From contig NC_057862.1 of the NCBI RefSeq assembly GCF_019393635.1, positions 481,744,669-481,808,668 on the forward strand: a stretch of 64,000 nt of DNA, in the 5' to 3' direction. The notes below the pieces were generated by a model. The model was given only the letters and a program-made list of their open reading frames with translations. It was not told the origin of the DNA and did not search any database. The position numbers were made by a program, and so were the translations under genes. The DNA comes from Dromiciops gliroides. Its lineage: Eukaryota > Chordata > Mammalia > Microbiotheria > Microbiotheriidae. This document shows positions 8,684-18,768 of this stretch, piece by piece. How positions within the stretch are numbered: the stretch's first letter is position 1; every line of letters begins with the position of its first letter.

Positions 8684-9181
8684 TTGCTAAAAGGTACTAT
8701 AGATAATGAAGTAATATCAATATTAAATATGTATGCGCCAAGTGGTATAGCATCCAAGTTCTTAGAGGAGAAGTTAAATGGGTTACAAGGGGAATTAGAC
8801 AGTAATACTATACTAGTGGGGGATCTGAATCTCCCCCTCTCAGAATTAGATAAATCTAGCCACAAAATAAATAAGAAAGAAGTGAAAGAGGTGAATAGAT
8901 TACTAGAAAAGTTAGACATGATAGATGTCTGGAGAAAATTGAATGGGGATAGAAAGGAATATACCTTTTTCTCAGCAGTACATGGCACATTTTCAATAAT
9001 TGACCATGTATTAGGGAACAAAAACATCATAGTGAAATGTAGAAAGGCAGGAATAGTAAATGCATCCTTCTCAGATCATGATGCAATAAAAATTACATGT
9101 AATAAAGAGCAAGGGAAAGGAAGACTGAAAATCAATTGGAAAAGAAATAATTTAATTCTAAAGAATGAGTGGGTCAAATAA
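8684..9181 (+). pseudogene. L1 ORF2 endonuclease fragment
   Basis: A 165-codon open stretch from the L1 ORF2 endonuclease domain. Visible motifs include 'MYAP', 'VGDLNLPLS' (family GDFN) and 'FSDHDAI', placing it in the APE-like fold that nicks target DNA for target-primed reverse transcription. The frame is also readable upstream to about 8420, with an in-frame interruption. It ends in a stop at 9181 well before the RT domain, so no functional ORF2 protein can be made from this copy. Confidence 0.85.
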
Positions 9182-9625: not shown

Positions 9626-9629
9626 GAAC
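9626..9629. repeat. Left target-site duplication of the ERV (GAAC)
   Basis: GAAC directly abuts the outer TG of the LTR. The same GAAC follows the other LTR at 17951-17954, and the L1 text reads continuously when one copy is removed. A 4-bp duplication is typical of gammaretrovirus-type (class I) integrases. Confidence 0.95.
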
Positions 9630-10128
9630 TGTGAAATTTAAAATTGGATATTAGATCATAAATCTCCCCTACTTAACTTTTCCCTTAATTTATCTCCCAG
9701 ACTAGTAAATGGAAGAAGCTTCTGGTTTTCTAGATAGAGCCTTTATTGTAAATAAGGTGTTGTTGATTAGAAGGATAGGAAAGTAGAAATACAGTAGAAA
9801 TCGTCTTAAATCTAGGCTTAGTCTATATTTCTTATAAAAACTCACCAAACCAAAAAAGGCCACCTTTGGAGTGAGGGAGACCGTCTGTGCTGCGCCGCCA
9901 GGAGTCCCGCCAAGCAGGCAAAAAGGCCTACTCTGCTTCTCTCCACCCCGGAAGTCAAAAAACCCGGCAGGCAGTCTGACATGCGCAGCAGGCGGACTGT
10001 ACCCGGCAGGCAGTCTGACATGCGCAGCAGGCGGACTGTTCATCTCCTCCCCAAAAGGGTGGTCCTTGAAAAACTGGCGTCTTTCAGTTATCCTAACCGA
10101 CTGTTAAAAACTTTCATATTTTACCACA
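9630..10128 (-). repeat. 3' LTR of the ERV (499 bp)
   Basis: Bounded by TG...CA ends (TGTGGTAAAA to TTTCACA read on the minus strand). It has an AATAAA poly(A) signal (complement of 9742-9747) and a TATA-like TTTTTATAAG (9831-9840) upstream of it, so the promoter reads leftward. It carries two tandem copies of a 39-bp U3 unit (9962-10000 and 10001-10039), while the 5' LTR has one. Confidence 0.96.
9962..10039 (-). promoter_or_regulatory. 39-bp tandem duplication in U3
   Basis: Two exact 39-bp GC-rich units stand head to tail, each containing 'catgcgcagcaggcgg'. In the minus-strand LTR they lie in U3, upstream of the TATA-like box, where gammaretroviral enhancers often occur as direct repeats. 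An enhancer role is inference. The unit contains a GCGC-rich NRF-1-like 'tgcgcagc' core. Confidence 0.7.
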
Positions 10129-10140
10129 TTTCCCCCCTTT
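10129..10140 (-). promoter_or_regulatory. Polypurine tract (plus-strand primer)
   Basis: Read on the minus strand this is AAAGGGGGGAAA, immediately upstream of the 3' LTR TGTGG start. That is the expected place and composition for the RNase H-resistant plus-strand primer. A similar tract sits next to the related LTR at 26500-26510. Confidence 0.9.
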
Positions 10141-11676
10141 GCTTCCTCAAGAAATGGAATGTTTCCTTGATGGAACAGTAAAAAGAATATAATAACTTTT
10201 GCTGACTAATAATATGCGAACAACAATACAGAAAAAGAAGAGAGGAAAGTTTTGTCCAGAGGGGCGATTTTTTTTTTTTTTTCTTTCCTCATGAACTGAC
10301 GCTTTGACATTAGTCTTGCAAAGGGAGAGCCTCTGCAGAGAGTACATGTTACAGATAGTATATAACAGAAAGGAGATAGTAAAAGCTAATAAAGCAAAAC
10401 AGTTCATATAAAGTCTCTGAGTTCTCTTGTCTTCTTGAAGTGGTAAGATGTCATCAGGAGGAAACTGGATTCTGGTCTGGAAAACTGGTTGCTGGACTCT
10501 GGTCTGGATTCTGGACTCTGGACTCTGGTCTGGAAAGCTGGATTTCTTCTTTAACTGTTTGAATTGCTGTATTTTTTTTTACTAAACCTTAGCATAGCAT
10601 TTTGCAATCAGTAACACTTTTTACCACCATGTGTCTGGATCAAAGTCAAATTTAGTATGTGTTCATGACACCTGAAAATGTTATGGAAAGGTTATCATAC
10701 CATATCTCATGGTTCCGAGACAGCCAGTGATTGTGCTAGGCCACAGGTGAATTCAACTGAGTGAGATAAAAAGATAAGTAAGTTCAGTTAAATTAGGTTA
10801 AATTAGGAGGGAGAGAGGATGAATACTGGACTGTGCCTAGTAATTGTGCTCTACATAGTCACCATCATAAGCAAACCATGGACTTATGTATACCTGTCTC
10901 TCCTTTTGTTGCACATATATTCTCTCCAGGGCCTGCATCAGAGTTCACAGCAAGTTAGTCTCTGAAATGATAAGTTTCCATATTTCTGAAATCTCATTAA
11001 TTTCACCAAAGACAATATGATGGTAAAAATGTGTGCTATGCTGCATAACTGAGAATATATTAGTGATATATACAATAATTCCAAACCATACCCAGAGTAT
11101 AATGACATATAAATAATAAATGAATGTAAATAGCTGATTATATTAGACATTGTTACATAATCTTCTTTTAGACATTATTACATAATCTTCTTTTAGCAAG
11201 TAGACCACATCATCTTATACATGAATTCTCTAGTATAACAGTAGCAGATACTTAAAGTGGTGATTAATTCATCAAAAAGAAATAAGACTTCAATTAGCAA
11301 GATTCAATATTCAATAGCATATACTTAAAATGCCTTTGAAAAGTCACTTAGTTTACAAAATCGGGTTTTTAAAGAAAAGCAAAAGAAACAAAAGTAAAAA
11401 AAAAAAAAACAAAGCAAAACCAAAAACCAAAAATAAAAGGCAAAAGATTCGCTAAGCACCCTTTTGTGCTCTTAAAGAATTTAAAGGTGTGGTGAATTCC
11501 AGGTCTTTTCAGTGCCTTTCAAAAGTCAAAACAAAACAAAAAGCAAAAAGGATTAAAAAAAAAATAGGTATAGGGTAGGGAAAAGGGTGGGAGAAATTGA
11601 GGTGGGCCAGAAAACTAGGCCATGTGCTTCAGTGCTTTTGCCTGTGGAAGGAAATGCTTGTTAAATTTTAAGGTAT
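10141..11676 (-). other. ERV 3' internal region without recognisable env
   Basis: About 1.5 kb lies between the pol-OTU stop and the polypurine tract. The longest minus-strand frames (10147-10407, 86 codons, and 10938-11150, 70 codons) are hydrophobic but show no Env surface/transmembrane hallmarks such as a CWLC box, immunosuppressive-type segment or CX6CC. There are A-rich tracts near 11400 and 11550, and a degenerate 'ctggactctggtctgg' repeat at 10466-10540. A pyrimidine-rich splice-acceptor-like site (TTCCTTCCACAG on the minus strand, about 11643-11654) lies just past the OTU stop. What this region does is unknown. Confidence 0.7.
10466..10540. repeat. Short degenerate tandem repeat inside the ERV
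   Basis: Repeated 'ctggtctgga' and 'ctggactctg' words in head-to-tail order, about five units. They lie in the non-coding 3' region of the provirus. Confidence 0.7.
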
Positions 11677-14600
11677 TTAAGCTGCTAGAGTTTGGGGTAT
11701 GCCACATTGTTTTAACTGGTTCCCCAATTCTCTGCATGCCAAAGTGGCAGGGGTTTCTGAATTGTCATTGATCTTTCTAATGCTGTCATAATGTTCTTTA
11801 TGGTAGAAAATGTGGAGTTCTCTAGCATCAGTTTTGTCTGTGCCACTGATTCTCAATAAAGGCTGATTTAATTGATGAACCACAACATTCAGCTGATGCT
11901 GCTTAGCAAATGCTACAATTGTATCATTTCCTCCCCACTTTCCAAATTTCTTTAATTCATCAACATATTCTTCAAAAGGGGAGTCATTTACTCTAAAAGA
12001 CTCAAACTCTTGTCTATGGTTAATCATATAAGAAGCAGCTTCTTGTCTGTGTCTGAGATGATTTCTACAGTGACCTTCTAGCTGGTCTGCTAAAGCCCTA
12101 AAAAGGCAATTTCCGTCTCCTGATACTTTACGAAGACTGAGTCCCAAAGCATTTAACTGATCAGTGGGATTCTTAAATGGGAACTGCCTGTTTCCTCTCA
12201 ACTTTCTTTGCTCTTTAACAGTTGCTATCGTTAGGGTTTTTACCTCTTTAGCGTCTACCTCAGGTCTATCTGAAATCTCTTCACCTATGAATGGTGCAGG
12301 CTTTATATGAGAGCAATGAATCCATGAGTCTTTTTCACCAATTTTAATGGCAGTAGGAGTTGTCAATAATACCTGAAAAGGTCCTTCCCAGGCAGGTTGA
12401 GTTCCACTGGTTCTCTGAAAATTCTTTACATATATTTTATCTCCTGGGTTGAAGTTATGCAATGAAAAGTCTAATGGTCCTGCCTGGACCACAGCTCCTG
12501 CCTCATGGAGTTCACGTAGCCTGGTTTGTAATTCCTGTATATAGGAAGCAACAGAAGTATCACCTCCCACCAGTGATGTATAAACTGGGGAAAAAGTTTT
12601 AGCTTGGATAGGAGGGTGACCAAAAAGCATTTCATAAGGAGATATATGAAGTTCTCCCCTTGGTCTACTTCGTAGATAGAATAATGCCAATGGTAGAACA
12701 TCAGGCCATTTCAAATGGGTTTCAGTACATAATTTGCCAATCATGCTCTTAAGCTCTTTATTCATACGTTCAACTTGGCCTGAACTTTGTGGATGGTAGG
12801 GCGTGTGGAATTTTGGAGTCACTCCCAAGAAAGAGTAGATTTGGGATAAAATCGAATCAGTGAAATGTGTGCCTTTGTCAGAATCAATGCGGGCTGGTGG
12901 GCCAAAACGAGGTACTATCTCTTTAAGGAGAATTTTGGCAACAAAGGCAGCTGTGGCTCGGGGGCTGGGAAAGGCCTCCACCCACCGAGTGAGCTGATCA
13001 ACTATAACAAGGCAAAATTTATAATGTCCTGCTTTTGGCATAGTAATATAATCAATTTGTAAGTGCTCAAAAGGTGTATATGCTAGAGGACGCCCTCCAT
13101 AAGCTTTGGCCTTAAAAGCATACTGATTATAAGACTGACATGTGGAGCAGCCCGAGCAGATTCGAGATGCTGTATTAGTCACACCTGGTGCTATCCAGGT
13201 TCTCTTAATAGAGTCTACAATGCCTTGTGTACCAAAATGGCCTTTTCTGTGAACAGAGAGGCATACCTGGTGGTAGAATTTCCGGGGAAGAAATGGCTTA
13301 CCTTCCGGAGACACCCAGATGCCATTGATCTGTTTCGCCTTAAATTTCTTTTTCCACTTTTCTACTTCAGAATCGTCATAGGTTAGGTTGGAAGGAATAT
13401 CCTCAGAAGGTGAAAGGTTAAATACATGTTCAGGAGCTTCTAATGCAGCAAGCTTGGCTGCAGAATCGGCTCGTGCATTTCCCTTTGAAACAGGATCACT
13501 ATTCCCTGTGTGGGCAGGGCAATGTACAACAGCTAGGAAAGAAGGCAGTTTCAGGGCATCTAAGAGGTCCTTGATAAGGTCCCCATTGGCAATAGCCTTG
13601 CCCGAGGATGTTAGAAAGCCTCGTTGACGCCAAATCATACCAATAAAGTGGCATATGCCAAAGCCATATTTCGAGTCAGTAAAAATAGTGGCACTCTTAC
13701 CTTTGGCTATATTACAGGCCTGTGTAAGAGCCACAAGTTCAGCAGCCTGTGCACTAAAATGGCAAGGCAGAGAAGCTGCCCAGAGGGTGTCATAATCAGA
13801 AACTACAGCAGCTCCAGTAAAACGGGTTCCCTCTCTCATAAATGAGGAACCATCTGTATAGAGGACAAGATCAGGATTTTCTAAAGGTGTATCAAAAAGA
13901 TCATCACGGGGTTTTTCAGCCATATCAACTAAAGAAGCACAGTCATGCAACGGTTCCCCCGAGAATGGTAAATTAGGGAGTAGTGTTGCTGGATTAAGAA
14001 CTGTGCAGCGTTTTAAAGTGATATTCTCATTACCTAACAGGGTTATTTCATACTTAGCCAGCCTTTGATCTGAAAAGGCTTGTGTCCTGTGACGTAGTAA
14101 GAGAGCCTCCACTTCATGAGGGCATTGCACAGTTAGAGGGTTACCTAGGACCAAATCAGAGGCTTTTTCTACCAAAAGCGCTGTGGCCGCCACTGCTCTA
14201 AGGCAAGGTGGCACTCCAGCCGCTACAGGGTCCAGCTGAATTGAATAGTAGGCTATAGGGCGTTGGTTAGGCCCCAGTGACTGAGTCAGAACTCCAGAAG
14301 CCACCCCCCTTTGTTCATGCACAAAGAGAGTGAAAGGCTTACTATAATCTGGCAGTCCTAGGGCAGGTGCTGATAACAAGGCCCGTTTTAATTCTTTTAT
14401 GGCTGAGAGATGCTGGGGATCCAACTGTAAACTGTCTGGAACAGAACTTTTTGTAAGAGCTATGAGGGGTTTAGTAATTTCACCAAAAGAGGGTATCCAT
14501 TGTCTACAGTACCCGGCTGCTCCTAGAATGGCTCTCAACTGCCTCTTAGTAGTGGGGGCAGAGAGTTGTTGAATGGCCTGGACTCTCTTAGAAGAGACAG

Positions 14601-15855
14601 AGCGAGTTCCAGCAGCCAAAATAAATCCTAAATATTCTACCTGGGGCAAACACCATTGTACCTTTGTCTTGGAAACCTTGTGTCCTCTCTTGTGCAGCTC
14701 CAGCAGTAAGTGACGGCTATCTTCCTGACAAATTTCAGCATTAGGAGAGGCCAAAAGTAAGTCATCAACATATTGTACTAGTGTGGAGGCTTTAAAGGTA
14801 ATAGAGGCCAGATCCTGCTGTAAAATTTGGGAAAATAATGTGGGACTGTCTACAAATCCCTGTGGGAGTCTAGTCCAGGTCCACTGTCTATTTTTCCAGG
14901 TAAAAGCAAATAAATATTGGAAGTCCTCATGTACTGGTATGGAGAAAAAGGCAGAGCAAAGGTCTACCACTGTGAAACATGTAGATTCATAGGGAATTGA
15001 GGAAATTATCATAGCCGGATTTGCGACTATAGAATGTCTAGGAATAACATAATTATTAATCGCTCTAAGATCTTGCACAAAGCGATAAACAGGTTTACCA
15101 TCTGGCCCAGGCTTGGGTTTTTTAACTGGCAAAATGGGAGTATTGCATGGAGAGTGATGACATGGAATAATAATACCCTGGCTTTTCAAAGCCTCAATTA
15201 TAGGGGTGATCCCTTCTATTGCTTCCCTAGACAATGGATACTGTGGAATGGAGGGGGGTGGTCCCCCCTTAACTTTAAAGGTAACAGGCATGGCAGACTT
15301 AAGGAGCCCCACCTCATTAGGGGATGAGGCCCATAAAGACTCAGGAATGTCAGAGGGGATTTTGGATACCTCCCCTGCTGTTCCTTGAGCTTCTGTAAGT
15401 AAAATTGGTAATAAATGAACAGTATCCTCTGGCAATTGTAAGGAGACAGCCCCATCTGGAGCACAAGATATGGTTGCTCTAAGCTTGCAAAGGAGATCAC
15501 GACCTAATAAATTTACAGGGGCATCAGGCATGAGTAAAAATGAATGTTCTACTGTTAAGGGCCCCATAGATACCATGCGAGGATTCAATTTTGCCACTCT
15601 CTGGCTCTTTCCTGAGACTCCTACTACATTTAAATATCCTACAGGTCTACACCCAGCATCTGGTTTGCTTACTAACACTGATTTAGAGGCTCCTGTGTCT
15701 AGCAGACAATCATAATAAGTCTCCCCCACTTTTAAGGTGACATGTGGTTCATTACTCTGGGGAGGTGAATGGACTGGCACAAGTGCATTCAAAAAATCCG
15801 GATCTGGGAATATATGGCTTTCATTATCTATGTTCCATTCCTCCCCAAGACACCG
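11677..15855 (-). CDS. pol: ERV pro-pol polyprotein with C-terminal OTU deubiquitinase-like domain
   Basis: Replication polyprotein read from the gag frame by suppression of the UGA at 15856-15858. There is no stop between that codon and the open frame, and no ATG is needed. With residue 1 at the codon 15790-15792: protease Asp-Thr-Gly at 32-34; RT about 165-395 with Leu-Pro-Gln-Gly (309-312) and Tyr-Val-Asp-Asp (341-344); RNase H acidic residues Asp647, Glu685, Asp706, Asp776; integrase zinc site His848/His852/Cys882/Cys885; catalytic Asp914, Asp972 and Glu1008 (35 residues between the last two); GPF motif at 1137-1139. From about 1211 it continues into an OTU domain. All catalytic residues are present and the frame is unbroken over 1371 codons. 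It acts in reverse transcription and integration. Whether the viral protease frees the OTU part is not visible. Confidence 0.96.
11749..12162 (-). other. OTUD3-like OTU cysteine-protease domain fused to Pol
   Basis: The last ~160 residues of Pol form an OTU fold segment. It has the Asp-Gly-Asn-Cys motif (Asp1226, catalytic Cys1229; TGC codon at 12106-12108), followed by 'LFRAL' and 'DQLEGH'. A 'GND..VAFA..HQLNV' block comes next, and the Glu-His-Tyr-Asp-Ser motif carries the catalytic His1334. Block order and wording match the host deubiquitinase OTUD3 more closely than other OTU proteins I know, judged by recall. Host OTUD3 cleaves ubiquitin chains and has been linked to PTEN stability and MAVS signalling. 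The segment is intronless and starts soon after the integrase C-terminal domain, suggesting capture from a processed transcript. OTUD3's C-terminal UBA-type part is absent. Enzyme activity is inferred from the intact triad only. Confidence 0.93.
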
Positions 15856-15858
15856 TCA
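15853..15858 (-). promoter_or_regulatory. Probable UGA readthrough site between gag and pol
   Basis: The gag frame ends TGA followed by CGG, and the next 21 codons lead without a stop into the protease. Gammaretroviruses express Pol by suppressing an in-frame stop, usually UAG. UGA-CGG is a known leaky termination context in other viruses and cellular genes. A downstream RNA structure was not evaluated. Confidence 0.75.
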
Positions 15859-17292
15859 TTCCTGTGTCCTCTTCTGAGGGGGACCTTGGTTACCATTATT
15901 CTGGTACTGCCTTTCTGTATTCCTCCGAAAAGATCTATTTCTATTTTGATTTCGCCTGTAATTAGAATTAGAATTTCTTCTCCAAGTCCTACATTCTCTC
16001 AATTCATGCCCCTCCTTACGACAGTAACAACACACCTTAGTGTCCTTGCTCCGGTGTTCACATGGCTGACTAGGAATCGCTGGTGCCAGAATGCTCTGTT
16101 TAGGGTGATCTGGATCTTCCTCACGTGAGTCAAAGACATAATTTGCAAGTTCCTTAATTCTATCTACTGTGAGATTTCTCCAGTCTGGACATTGTTTCAG
16201 AAAGTATCTGCGTATTTCTGGCAGTGAATTATAAACAAATGTGTTGAGAACGATATAGGAATCTCTTAAATCTACTGGATCCAATCTGGTGTACTGTCTA
16301 GCGGCCTCACAAAGTCTATCATAAAATCTGTTTGGTCTTTCATTAGCCTCCTGAGGTAGGCTTAAAAATTTCTGCCAGTTTTCCGGTTTTCTAGAGCAAG
16401 ATTCCATTCCCTTCAGAAGTGTTTCTCTAGCATCTTTTAATCTTTGGAAATCCCTATCATCATTATAATTCCACTCTGGATCCTTTAGAGGCCATTCCAC
16501 ATTGGCCTTACCTTTCGCAACAAGGGCATTTCCTGCTGAGATAATATCTGTAATCTCAGTTGGGGACAGTAAAGTTTCCAAAAGGCAAGTAACATCAGCC
16601 CAACTGGGTTGATATGCATTAAATATAGTCCTTAACTGTGAAATTACAGTGTTTGGATTTTTCTCAAAACTAGGGATGAAAGATTTCCATGCGCTCAAGT
16701 CACTTGGTCTAAAGGGGCTATATTTTCTGACTTGAATTGGCACTCCCTTTTTACTATGTTCTATAGCTTCCTGCAGAGGGAGTAGTTTCTGTTGATCTGA
16801 TTCTAAACTTGGATCATCTCTAGTAGAAACAGCCATTTTGAGGTCTCTCTCCATATGTGAGAATTTCATTTCGAGGTCTCTCTCCATATGTGAGAATTTC
16901 ATTTTGAGGTCTCTCTCCATATGTGAGTATTTCATTTTGAGGACTCTCTCCATATGTGAGAATTTCCCCCATATCATAACAATGATAATAACAAAAACAA
17001 AACAAGACAAAAAAAACCCAAAAAAAATAAAATCCTTAGTCGTATGAACTATGGATGTGGTATTAAAAGGTATTTCAATTGCAGGCATAAAATTTCTACT
17101 TATATTAAACGTATTTTCCCAAAGATTCTCACTTATACTATTATACAAAAAACTTTTTGCTGCCTGAATGAGGAAAAAACCAATAATGTTTTGAAGGACC
17201 ATTGAGTAAACTATTCCTCTAAGTCGGGACGTTATGCTGTCCCAATACATTCCGATGAGAAAAATCAAAGGGATAGTAGAATATTCGAGCAT
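15856..17292 (-). CDS. gag: ERV Gag with transmembrane N-terminus and 11-residue repeats
   Basis: 478-residue structural polyprotein with a true ATG at 17290-17292 and A at -3. Residues 1-50 and 87-108 are hydrophobic. Between them are two N-glycosylation sequons (Asn63-Ile-Ser, Asn77-Thr-Thr), compatible with a lumenal loop. Residues about 110-153 hold four 11-residue repeats built on 'FSHMERDLKMK', probably a coiled coil. From about 190 a capsid-like region begins (Pro-Phe-Arg-Pro, then helices with 'WADVTCLLETLLSP'), as in gammaretroviral Gag p30. A nucleocapsid zinc knuckle CX2CX4HX4C lies at Cys421/Cys424/His429/Cys434, followed by an Arg/Asn-rich tail. No N-terminal Met-Gly myristoylation signal and no recognisable matrix domain are present. 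The frame ends in UGA, in the same frame as pol. Confidence 0.94.
   Translation of the reverse strand: MLEYSTIPLIFLIGMYWDSITSRLRGIVYSMVLQNIIGFFLIQAAKSFLYNSISENLWENTFNISRNFMPAIEIPFNTTSIVHTTKDFIFFGFFLSCFVFVIIIVMIWGKFSHMERVLKMKYSHMERDLKMKFSHMERDLEMKFSHMERDLKMAVSTRDDPSLESDQQKLLPLQEAIEHSKKGVPIQVRKYSPFRPSDLSAWKSFIPSFEKNPNTVISQLRTIFNAYQPSWADVTCLLETLLSPTEITDIISAGNALVAKGKANVEWPLKDPEWNYNDDRDFQRLKDARETLLKGMESCSRKPENWQKFLSLPQEANERPNRFYDRLCEAARQYTRLDPVDLRDSYIVLNTFVYNSLPEIRRYFLKQCPDWRNLTVDRIKELANYVFDSREEDPDHPKQSILAPAIPSQPCEHRSKDTKVCCYCRKEGHELRECRTWRRNSNSNYRRNQNRNRSFRRNTERQYQNNGNQGPPQKRTQE
16842..16971 (-). repeat. 33-bp tandem repeats inside gag
   Basis: Four head-to-tail 33-bp units, each coding for 11 residues of the Phe/Tyr-Ser-His-Met-Glu-Arg type. 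Units differ by only a few bases, so they expanded recently. An 11-residue period fits a hendecad coiled coil. Confidence 0.9.
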
Positions 17293-17469
17293 CTTGCCCT
17301 TTAAACTGGGCTGGCTTTTCTGTTTAAAGCAAGACTTTTAGAGGCTTAAAGTCTTTAAGGGAGATTAGACAAAGGGAAAGTCCGTGGCGGGGGGGGGGGG
17401 GGGTATTCGGAAAATCCACCGAATTAGCCGGCTTATGGCCAAACTAGGGAGGGTGGGAGGGTCCTTAAG
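17293..17469 (-). other. ERV 5' leader
   Basis: About 180 bp between the primer site and the gag ATG. It contains a long G run on the plus strand (C run in the viral RNA sense) at about 17389-17403 and presumably part of the packaging region. No stem or dimerisation loop was proven. Confidence 0.6.
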
Positions 17470-17487
17470 GTCCCTTCGGGGTCGCCA
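17470..17487 (-). promoter_or_regulatory. Primer-binding site, tRNA-Arg type
   Basis: Three bases inside the 5' LTR, the minus strand reads TGGCGACCCCGAAGGGAC. This matches 17 of 18 bases of the 3' end of tRNA-Arg(TCG) as I recall it, one mismatch at position 9. The primer assignment is from memory of tRNA sequences. Confidence 0.8.
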
Positions 17488-17490
17488 AAC

Positions 17491-17950
17491 TGTGAAATTT
17501 AAAATTGGATATTAGATCATAAATCTCCCCTACTTAACTTTTCCCTTAATTTATCTCCCAGACTAGTAAATGGAAGAAGCTTCTGGTTTTCTAGATAGAG
17601 CCTTTATTGTAAATAAGGTGTTGTTGATTAGAAGGATAGGAAAGTAGAAATACAGTAGAAATCGTCTTAAATCTAGGCTTAGTCTATATTTCTTATAAAA
17701 ACTCACCAAACCAAAAAAGGCCACCTTTGGAGTGAGGGAGACCGTCTGTGCTGCGCCGCCAGGAGTCCCGCCAAGCAGGCAAAAAGGCCTACTCTGCTTC
17801 TCTCCACCCCGGAAGTCAAAAAACCCGGCAGGCAGTCTGACATGCGCAGCAGGCGGACTGTTCATCTCCTCCCCAAAAGGGTGGTCCTTGAAAAACTGGC
17901 GTCTTTCAGTTATCCTAACCGACTGTTAAAAACTTTCATATTTTACCACA
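17491..17950 (-). repeat. 5' LTR of the ERV (460 bp)
   Basis: Same termini, TATA-like box (about 17692-17701) and AATAAA (complement of 17603-17608) as the other LTR. It has a single copy of the 39-bp U3 unit (17823-17861). The length difference from the 3' LTR (499 minus 460) is exactly this unit. It is followed by the target duplication GAAC at 17951-17954. Confidence 0.96.
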
Positions 17951-18255
17951 GAACTATTTTGCCCAACTGTATGCCATTAAATTTGACAATCTAAATGAAA
18001 TGGATAAATATTTACAAAAATACAAACAGTCCAGTTTACCTAAAGAGGAAATAAAATACTTAAATAAGCCCATATTAGAAAAAAGAAATTGAACAAGCCA
18101 TTAATCAACTCCCTAAGAAAAAATCCCCACGGCCAGATGGGTTTACAGTTGAATTCTACCAAACATTTAAAGAACAATTAATTCCAATATTATACAAATT
18201 ATTTGGAAAAATAGGTAAAGAAAGAGTTATACCAAATTCCTTTTATGACACAAAT

Positions 18256-18768
18256 ATGGTGGTGATACCAAAACCAGGCAGAGCAAAAACAGAGAAAGAA
18301 AATTATATACCAGTTTCCCTAATGAGTATTGATGCTAAAATCTTAAATAAGATATTAGCAAGGAGATTACAGCAAGGGATCAACAGGATAATACACTCTG
18401 ACCAGGTAGGATTTATACCAAGAATTCAGGGCTGTTTCAACATTAGGAAAAATATCAACATAATCAACCCCATCAATAAGAAAACCAAGCAAAATTATAT
18501 GATTATCTCAATAGATGCAGAGAAAGCTTTTGACAAAACACAGCACCCATTCCTAATTAAAACACTAGGGAGCTTAGGAATAGGTGGAGCTTTCCTTAAA
18601 ATACGAAGCAGTATCTACCTAAAACCACCAGCAAGCATTATATGTAATGGAAATAAGTTAGAGTCCTTCCCAATAAGATCAAGGGTGAAACAGGGATATC
18701 CATTATCACCTCTATTATTGAATACTGTACTAGAAATATTAGCTTTAGCAATCGGAGAAGAAAAATGA
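18256..18768 (+). pseudogene. L1 ORF2 reverse-transcriptase fragment
   Basis: 170 codons from the fingers/palm of the L1 reverse transcriptase. Visible elements are 'IPKPGR', 'RPVSL'-like '[20 protein letters not shown]', 'DQVGFIP' and 'SIDAEKAFD', then '[12 protein letters not shown]'. The catalytic FADD is in the same element downstream, after a stop at the 3' end of this open stretch. It belongs to the broken L1 that hosts the provirus. Confidence 0.88.

Follow-up and report, generated by a model that had tools for sequence, protein, structure and literature searches.

The host genes that retroviruses have captured are mostly oncogenes or signalling ligands, and the OTU proteases of nairoviruses and other viruses act against ubiquitin or ISG15. 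Endogenous retroviruses (ERVs) of crocodilians have taken up spliced host mRNAs, those of nectin3 and of the signalling ligand KIT ligand, for which purifying selection was reported (PMC4299795). In Ginger1 transposons the integrase carries an OTU or Ulp1 protease at its C-terminus, and the authors who described them suggest that these proteases play a part in transposition (PMC2836005). Here we describe a provirus in a 64,000-nucleotide stretch of the genome of Dromiciops gliroides (contig NC_057862.1, 481,744,669–481,808,668, forward strand; the whole stretch is hereafter called the window), a class I ERV whose Pol runs from the integrase into an OTU domain derived from OTUD3. Host-gene capture by a retrovirus and an integrase with an OTU domain are each known already; a lasting Pol–OTU protein of OTUD3 descent is, on this evidence, a new combination.

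As in Ginger1, a DDE integrase, a GPY/F motif and then an OTU domain follow one another in one protein, but Ginger1 elements are cut-and-paste transposons with terminal inverted repeats, whereas the element here has long terminal repeats (LTRs), gag, protease, reverse transcriptase and an OTUD3-like OTU domain. Membership in Ginger1 was considered and is ruled out by the LTRs, reverse transcriptase and gag. The crocodilian captures form an additional open reading frame (ORF), and that of nectin3 came at the cost of env (PMC4299795); env is likewise missing here, but it is the Pol frame that has been extended, and by an enzyme of the ubiquitin system. Nairovirus and other viral OTU proteases share the OTU fold, but at 15–23% identity among the matches listed, and they belong to viruses without integration. 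With OTUD3 the ERV protein shares a homologous catalytic domain, the catalytic Asp, Cys and His and the predicted fold; it differs in keeping only the part from the end of exon 1 to exon 4, without the UBA domain or the tail, and in being fused to an integrase.

The ORF at 11677–15792 (−) encodes 1371 residues from its first start codon (1392 codons from stop to stop), and Pfam profiles fall in this single Pol frame in the order RVP, RVT_1, RNase_H, Integrase_H2C2, rve, MLVIN_C (residues 1112–1166) and OTU (PF02338, residues 1225–1328, E = 6e-12, 46.6 bits against a cut-off of 23.3). An earlier note, made from the letters alone, had described an integrase continuing stop-free into an OTU domain; this is what the one 1371-residue frame contains, and every position given in that note is correct (Asp914, Asp972, Glu1008 and GPF at 1137 in the integrase, Asp1226-Gly-Asn-Cys1229 and His1334 in the OTU domain). 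Taken alone, the OTU domain matches OTUD3 (4bou) with E = 1.5e-58 and 201.5 bits, followed by OTUD5 at 41.2 bits, the others of the eight PDB sequences compared scoring lower. Over 140 residues it is 63.6–68.6% identical to OTUD3-type proteins of mammals, birds, squamates and amphibians (best 120 of 324 matches), and those of the listed matches that bear an OTU protein name are called OTUD3 or ubiquitinyl hydrolase 1. Identity is 52–56% to six presumed invertebrate proteins and 39% to a fungal protein. The alignment with OTUD3 contains no frameshift and one gap of one residue. A predicted model of residues 1203–1352 (pLDDT 84.9) has OTUD3 4bou as its best match (63% identity, TM 0.78/0.82, E = 2e-19); an earlier model that included the linker (22 rows, pLDDT 54) was not used. 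Both the His loop and the V loop are changed relative to OTUD3, and a Lys aligned with OTUD3 Lys129, which we take to be human numbering, is present. The domain is an OTUD3-family OTU domain. We call it OTUD3-derived rather than OTUD3 because the homology stops ahead of host exon 5 and no UBA domain follows.

The OTUD3 gene of the window's own genome lies on the minus strand of contig C3, and the segment homologous to the ERV spans four of its exons. With host splice sites assigned from GT/AG and the koala protein, exon 1 ends within the second Gly codon of the GDGNC motif (614314992), and the next exons occupy 614308645–614308497, 614306836–614306724 and 614305112–614304990. The ERV domain lacks all three host introns, the first of which sits inside this active-site motif, and its source was therefore a spliced mRNA. 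OTUD3 homology stops three codons short of the end of exon 4 as assigned, and nothing from later exons is present. The proposal that an OTUD3 transcript was captured and only its catalytic half retained is thus borne out by OTUD3-specific similarity, by the three introns lost relative to the gene of the same genome, and by the end of homology near the end of exon 4.

In trees of the OTU domain, the ERV rows (17 of the 67 copies were used) form one clade with support 99/94, so one capture is enough. This clade stands beside all 45 tetrapod OTUD3 rows and not within them (81/84), and a 100/100 branch separates ERV and tetrapod rows from four outgroup rows, presumed invertebrate. The trees were built without OTU paralogues and without fish OTUD3, and since fish rows are absent they cannot place the domain inside the vertebrates. 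Approximately unbiased (AU) tests gave p = 0.0504 for grouping the ERV with marsupials, 0.183 with mammals and 0.42 with amniotes; with the window domain as the sole ERV row, each of the eight constrained placements remained acceptable (p 0.32–0.78). The host OTUD3 pairs with koala OTUD3 (99/94). In the tree with marsupial OTUD3 that the earlier note had called for, the domain does stay with OTUD3, and its grouping with the marsupial rows lies at the border of rejection (AU p = 0.0504). Judging from sequence identity and the host range of such viruses, the donor was probably a vertebrate, and a marsupial donor is only one placement among several allowed.

The fusion recurs in the window's own genome (3.30 Gb, 17 contigs). 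A 48-mer from the start of the young-type OTU domain has 1,206 matches at up to three mismatches, and its reversed control has none. With the last 207 Pol residues as query, 2,706 first-look candidates were obtained. The best 150 of these are 97–100% identical over the whole query, and 147 have no stop within the query part, while 83 belong to an open frame of the full 1392 codons (window copy included), in a sample biased to intact copies. At all ten young loci chosen by integrase match alone, the OTU domain lies behind the integrase. A koala OTUD3 query ranks older, more OTUD3-like copies first. The sample studied comprised 48 older copies (the most OTUD3-like rows, thus leaning to intact ones), 18 young loci (8 chosen by match to the window OTU, 10 by match to an opossum integrase) and the window. 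By tree and alignment, the older copies split into several groups, B–F. In three of them (L015, L016 and L020) one match spans the integrase into the OTU domain, L015 with one stop near the end, and in older copies the linker differs by gaps of 8–11 residues; the junction predicted to recur in other ERV copies is thus found in young and older ones alike. Many older copies have open frames of merely ~165–240 residues around the OTU domain, with a stop not far upstream of it. At assumed neutral rates of 1.5–3e-9 per site and year, the median synonymous distance of 0.097 in group B corresponds to ~16–32 million years, so OTU-bearing elements seem to have inserted over a long period. The window provirus itself has no substitution across the 460 sites shared by its LTRs, which at the same assumed rates bounds its insertion age at less than ~1.1–2.2 million years (95% bound).

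Between the window and the 48 older copies, the OTU domain has a median nonsynonymous distance (dN) of 0.210 and a synonymous distance (dS) of 1.10, a ratio of 0.19. The corresponding values for the integrase are 0.069, 0.673 and 0.11 over 35 of the 48, 13 copies with 150 or fewer integrase codons being omitted. When the young type (6 of 19 young rows) is compared with each of the older groups B–F, OTU dN/dS is 0.17–0.20. All three catalytic residues are present at each of the 18 young loci, and among the 48 older copies Asp is retained in 47, Cys in 46 and His in 46. The OTU domain is under purifying selection, and the suggestion that it was kept for a function gains from the ratios against the five older groups. 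A protein-only test, which is weaker, agrees less strongly: the ERV differs from OTUD3 in 11 of 63 OTUD3-invariant columns against 36 of 141 columns overall (hypergeometric p = 0.036). Over all pairs of old copies OTU dN/dS is 0.44, and within young copies the proportions of nonsynonymous and synonymous differences are 0.0060 (pn) and 0.0073 (ps), with a median dN of 0.009 and dS of 0; such values are expected of copies drifting after insertion. Host OTUD3 differs from the older copies by dN 0.206 and dS ~2.1, which is close to saturation (exceeded in 11 of the 48), and from the window by dN 0.265 with dS saturated; for this reason dS to the host gene was abandoned as a means of dating. Between young and older copies, dS is higher in the OTU part (11740–12165; 1.1) than in the integrase part (12295–12915; 0.67), a difference that recombination between lineages could have caused.

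The nearest Pol proteins outside this lineage, among the 8,000 candidates sharing most words that were scored, are those of opossum ERVs (UniProt K7E2C3 and A0A5F8GG34), with 75% and 69% identity over RNase H–integrase. In a quick-method tree of 24 of 120 relatives, Monodelphis ERV Pols form the sister group, with 100% support in the Shimodaira–Hasegawa-like approximate likelihood ratio test (SH-aLRT). These closest relatives are likewise class I ERVs, but in the database gene models their Pols end 8 residues past a conserved SWIHCSHVK, without an OTU domain; a third opossum row (P0130) stops ahead of the integrase end. Among the best 120 of 236 Pol relatives, the precomputed Pfam column lists PF02338 for none, and an OTU-like Cys motif past the integrase end, sought with one pattern, occurs in none of the 112 that reach there. 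A search with the OTU part among Pol-length proteins returned seven matches, and the Pfam column shows no Pol domains for any of them. The OTU domain may have been gained in this lineage or lost outside it; with dN in the OTU domain at roughly threefold the integrase value, both are possible. In IMG/VR the OTU part gave three pattern matches, none confirmed, and in a viral structure library none of the best 50 of 453 matches is named as retroviral, several being nameless. Among the open-access papers listed, no title or abstract opening describes a vertebrate retrovirus with an OTU domain, in a search that did not extend to subscription journals or repeat libraries, and words beginning with OTU or ubiquitin are absent from the main texts of the dasyurid (PMC11334065) and crocodilian (PMC4299795) ERV papers.

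We propose, with a probability of roughly 0.45, that OTUD3 mRNA was captured behind the integrase and that the resulting Gag-Pro-Pol-OTU protein has been in use since, with an active deubiquitinase acting on the integrase, Pol or the pre-integration complex. A class I ERV lineage would have taken up the spliced mRNA in frame after the integrase. From the integrase C-terminal domain to the catalytic Cys the frame contains no Met, from which we infer that the OTU domain would arise only through readthrough of the gag stop, at the C-terminal end of Gag-Pol; made in this way, it would travel with the integrase in the particle. The domain is predicted to be an active deubiquitinase, and its main task would be to strip ubiquitin from the integrase, other Pol products or proteins of the pre-integration complex, resulting in less proteasomal loss or easier integration. 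The integrase or its complex would be the likeliest target, given that the fusion point is common to older copies and that the OTU and Ulp1 proteases of Ginger1 are similarly placed. Lacking env, the element would probably amplify inside the cell; the missing env is in keeping with spread within the germ line, a mode described for a group of betaretroviral ERVs without env in dasyurids (PMC11334065). The ubiquitin–proteasome system degrades the integrase of HIV-1 (PMC6389893), and human OTUD3 cleaves Lys6 and Lys11 ubiquitin chains (PMC3705208).

Several observations weigh against this proposal. The integrase of murine leukaemia virus (MLV) is long-lived and nearly insensitive to proteasome inhibition (PMC6389893), and since the ERV integrase is MLV-like, a simple protection model is weakened. 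The altered His loop is one residue shorter than in OTUD3; in human OTUD3, changing this loop from RYGE to LSNG lowers activity, on Lys11 more than on Lys6 chains (PMC3705208). The activity or linkage choice of the ERV domain may therefore be shifted. Between older groups dN/dS is less strict, at 0.26–0.49 with post-insertion drift included, and the OTU domain has roughly threefold the dN of the integrase (0.207 against 0.069), a difference that a host-facing role would also give. That the integrase–deubiquitinase enzyme is a permanent, selected retroviral part, acting at the pre-integration complex or at insertion-site chromatin, we put forward tentatively.

The main rival, which we judge unlikely although still worth serious weight, makes the domain an immune antagonist that removes ubiquitin or ISG15 from RIG-I, MDA5 or MAVS and so blunts the sensing of retroviral RNA. 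OTUD3 strips K63 chains off MAVS, RIG-I and MDA5, suppressing immunity against RNA viruses, and its activity needs acetylation of Lys129 (PMC10566363), the aligned equivalent of which the ERV keeps. The PDB fold matches include nairovirus OTU proteases, and the roughly threefold dN relative to the integrase points the same way. The same host enzyme, however, promotes cGAS signalling (PMC10566363), which would work against a virus with a DNA stage. A protein present only in Gag-Pol is expected at low dose, the domain is fused to the integrase instead of forming a separate gene, and dN/dS between types lies well below 1. A role as an interaction or solubility module, or as a protease that cleaves the polyprotein, with no deubiquitinase activity, appears improbable. 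OTU-type domains of some other viruses do cut polyproteins, and the loops that shape the substrate choice of OTUD3 are altered in the ERV, but Pol has its own aspartic protease, and nearly all copies looked at retain Cys, His and Asp.

We give little credence to the domain being a passenger, a chance capture that hitch-hiked on a successful ERV. The burst is so young, as the LTR identity indicates, that intact frames prove nothing, the young copies by themselves have nearly equal pn and ps, and neutral drift, simulated on koala OTUD3 until an equal protein distance was reached, left the frame stop-free in 10% of 2,000 runs. The low dN/dS of the young type against each of the five older groups speaks against it, as do the triad kept in older copies and an alignment to OTUD3 free of frameshifts and with its single one-residue gap. 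That the fusion is an assembly error, or an OTUD3 retrocopy in a single provirus, has a negligible probability and is ruled out by the 1,206 48-mer matches and by the same fusion in old and young copies.

The provirus occupies 9630–17950 (−) of the window and is complete, with two LTRs, gag, pro-pol and a 4-bp target-site duplication (TSD; Table 1). Gag_p30, an MLV-type integrase C-terminal domain, a stop codon dividing gag from pol within a shared frame, and a 4-bp TSD are marks of class I ERVs, and all are present. The gag stop is UGA followed by CGG (15853–15858, −), and as pol continues in frame behind it the junction is of the readthrough type; the readthrough stop of MLV is UAG. The RNA 3′ of the gag stop folds no better than shuffled sequences (z = −0.55). 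The primer-binding site presumably corresponds to the 3′ end of an Arg tRNA, which it resembles. The LTRs are identical except for a 39-nt unit present in two copies in the 3′ LTR (~9958–10035) and one in the 5′ LTR, and gag holds 33-nt tandem repeats at 16801–16965 (−). LINE-type endonuclease and reverse-transcriptase pieces flank the provirus at 8684–9181 (+) and 18256–18768 (+); since they have the same orientation on both sides, the provirus probably inserted into a LINE-1.

Table 1. Features of the provirus in window coordinates.
Feature	Position	Strand	Evidence
TSD GTTC, 3′ side	9626–9629	−	Read from sequence
3′ LTR, 499 nt; carries a 39-nt tandem duplication that the 5′ LTR lacks	9630–10128	−	LTR alignment
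Polypurine tract AAAGGGGGGAAA, immediately upstream of the 3′ LTR	10129–10140	−	Read from sequence
Tail of 1.55 kb, env not recognisable	10129–11676	−	ORF, Pfam, tblastn
End of Pol past the OTU homology: 20 residues unlike OTUD3, and stop codon	11677–11739	−	
OTUD3-like OTU domain, residues ~1210–1351; Asp1226, Cys1229, His1334	11740–12165	−	
Linker of ~43 residues, integrase C-terminal domain to OTU	12166–12294	−	
Protease, reverse transcriptase, RNase H, integrase; last MLVIN_C residue 1166	12295–15792	−	
Start of the pro-pol open frame, directly after the gag stop, frame unchanged	15793–15855	−	
gag, 478 residues, Gag_p30 E = 1.9e-24	15856–17292	−	Pfam
Primer-binding site TGGCGACCCCGAAGGGAC	17470–17487	−	Sequence
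5′ LTR, 460 nt, zero substitutions against the 3′ LTR	17491–17950	−	LTR alignment
TSD GTTC, 5′ side	17951–17954	−	Read from sequence

In the tail between Pol and the 3′ LTR, the longest ORF has 143 residues, and no Pfam match was obtained. Three older copies contain stretches 68–82% similar to this tail 3′ of the OTU domain, and tblastn with a single Env-bearing query, a weak test, found no Env there. One older copy has a 305-residue open frame 3′ of the OTU domain, without a Pfam match (L079:1873–2787, −). The tail was also compared by blastn, as a possible OTUD3 3′ untranslated region, with 60 kb around the host gene, covering ~3.6 kb past the last coding exon. One strong match was obtained, to an ERV-like tail (L024:5166–5458; C3:614331166–614331458; 83% over 302 nt), and otherwise only weak short ones. 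This relative lies ~16 kb upstream of host OTUD3 in the opposite orientation, possibly by chance in a large family.

Pol has here durably acquired an enzyme of the ubiquitin system, and the lineage that carries it was still amplifying in the recent past. The lineage is a natural experiment for asking whether ubiquitin restricts the integrase, the pre-integration complex or the sensing of retroviruses in mammals, and its OTU sublineages are natural variants of a deubiquitinase with changed loops. If the proposed role is true, Ginger1 would be a second case, and the two together would suggest that DDE integrases repeatedly require the removal of ubiquitin or ubiquitin-like proteins.

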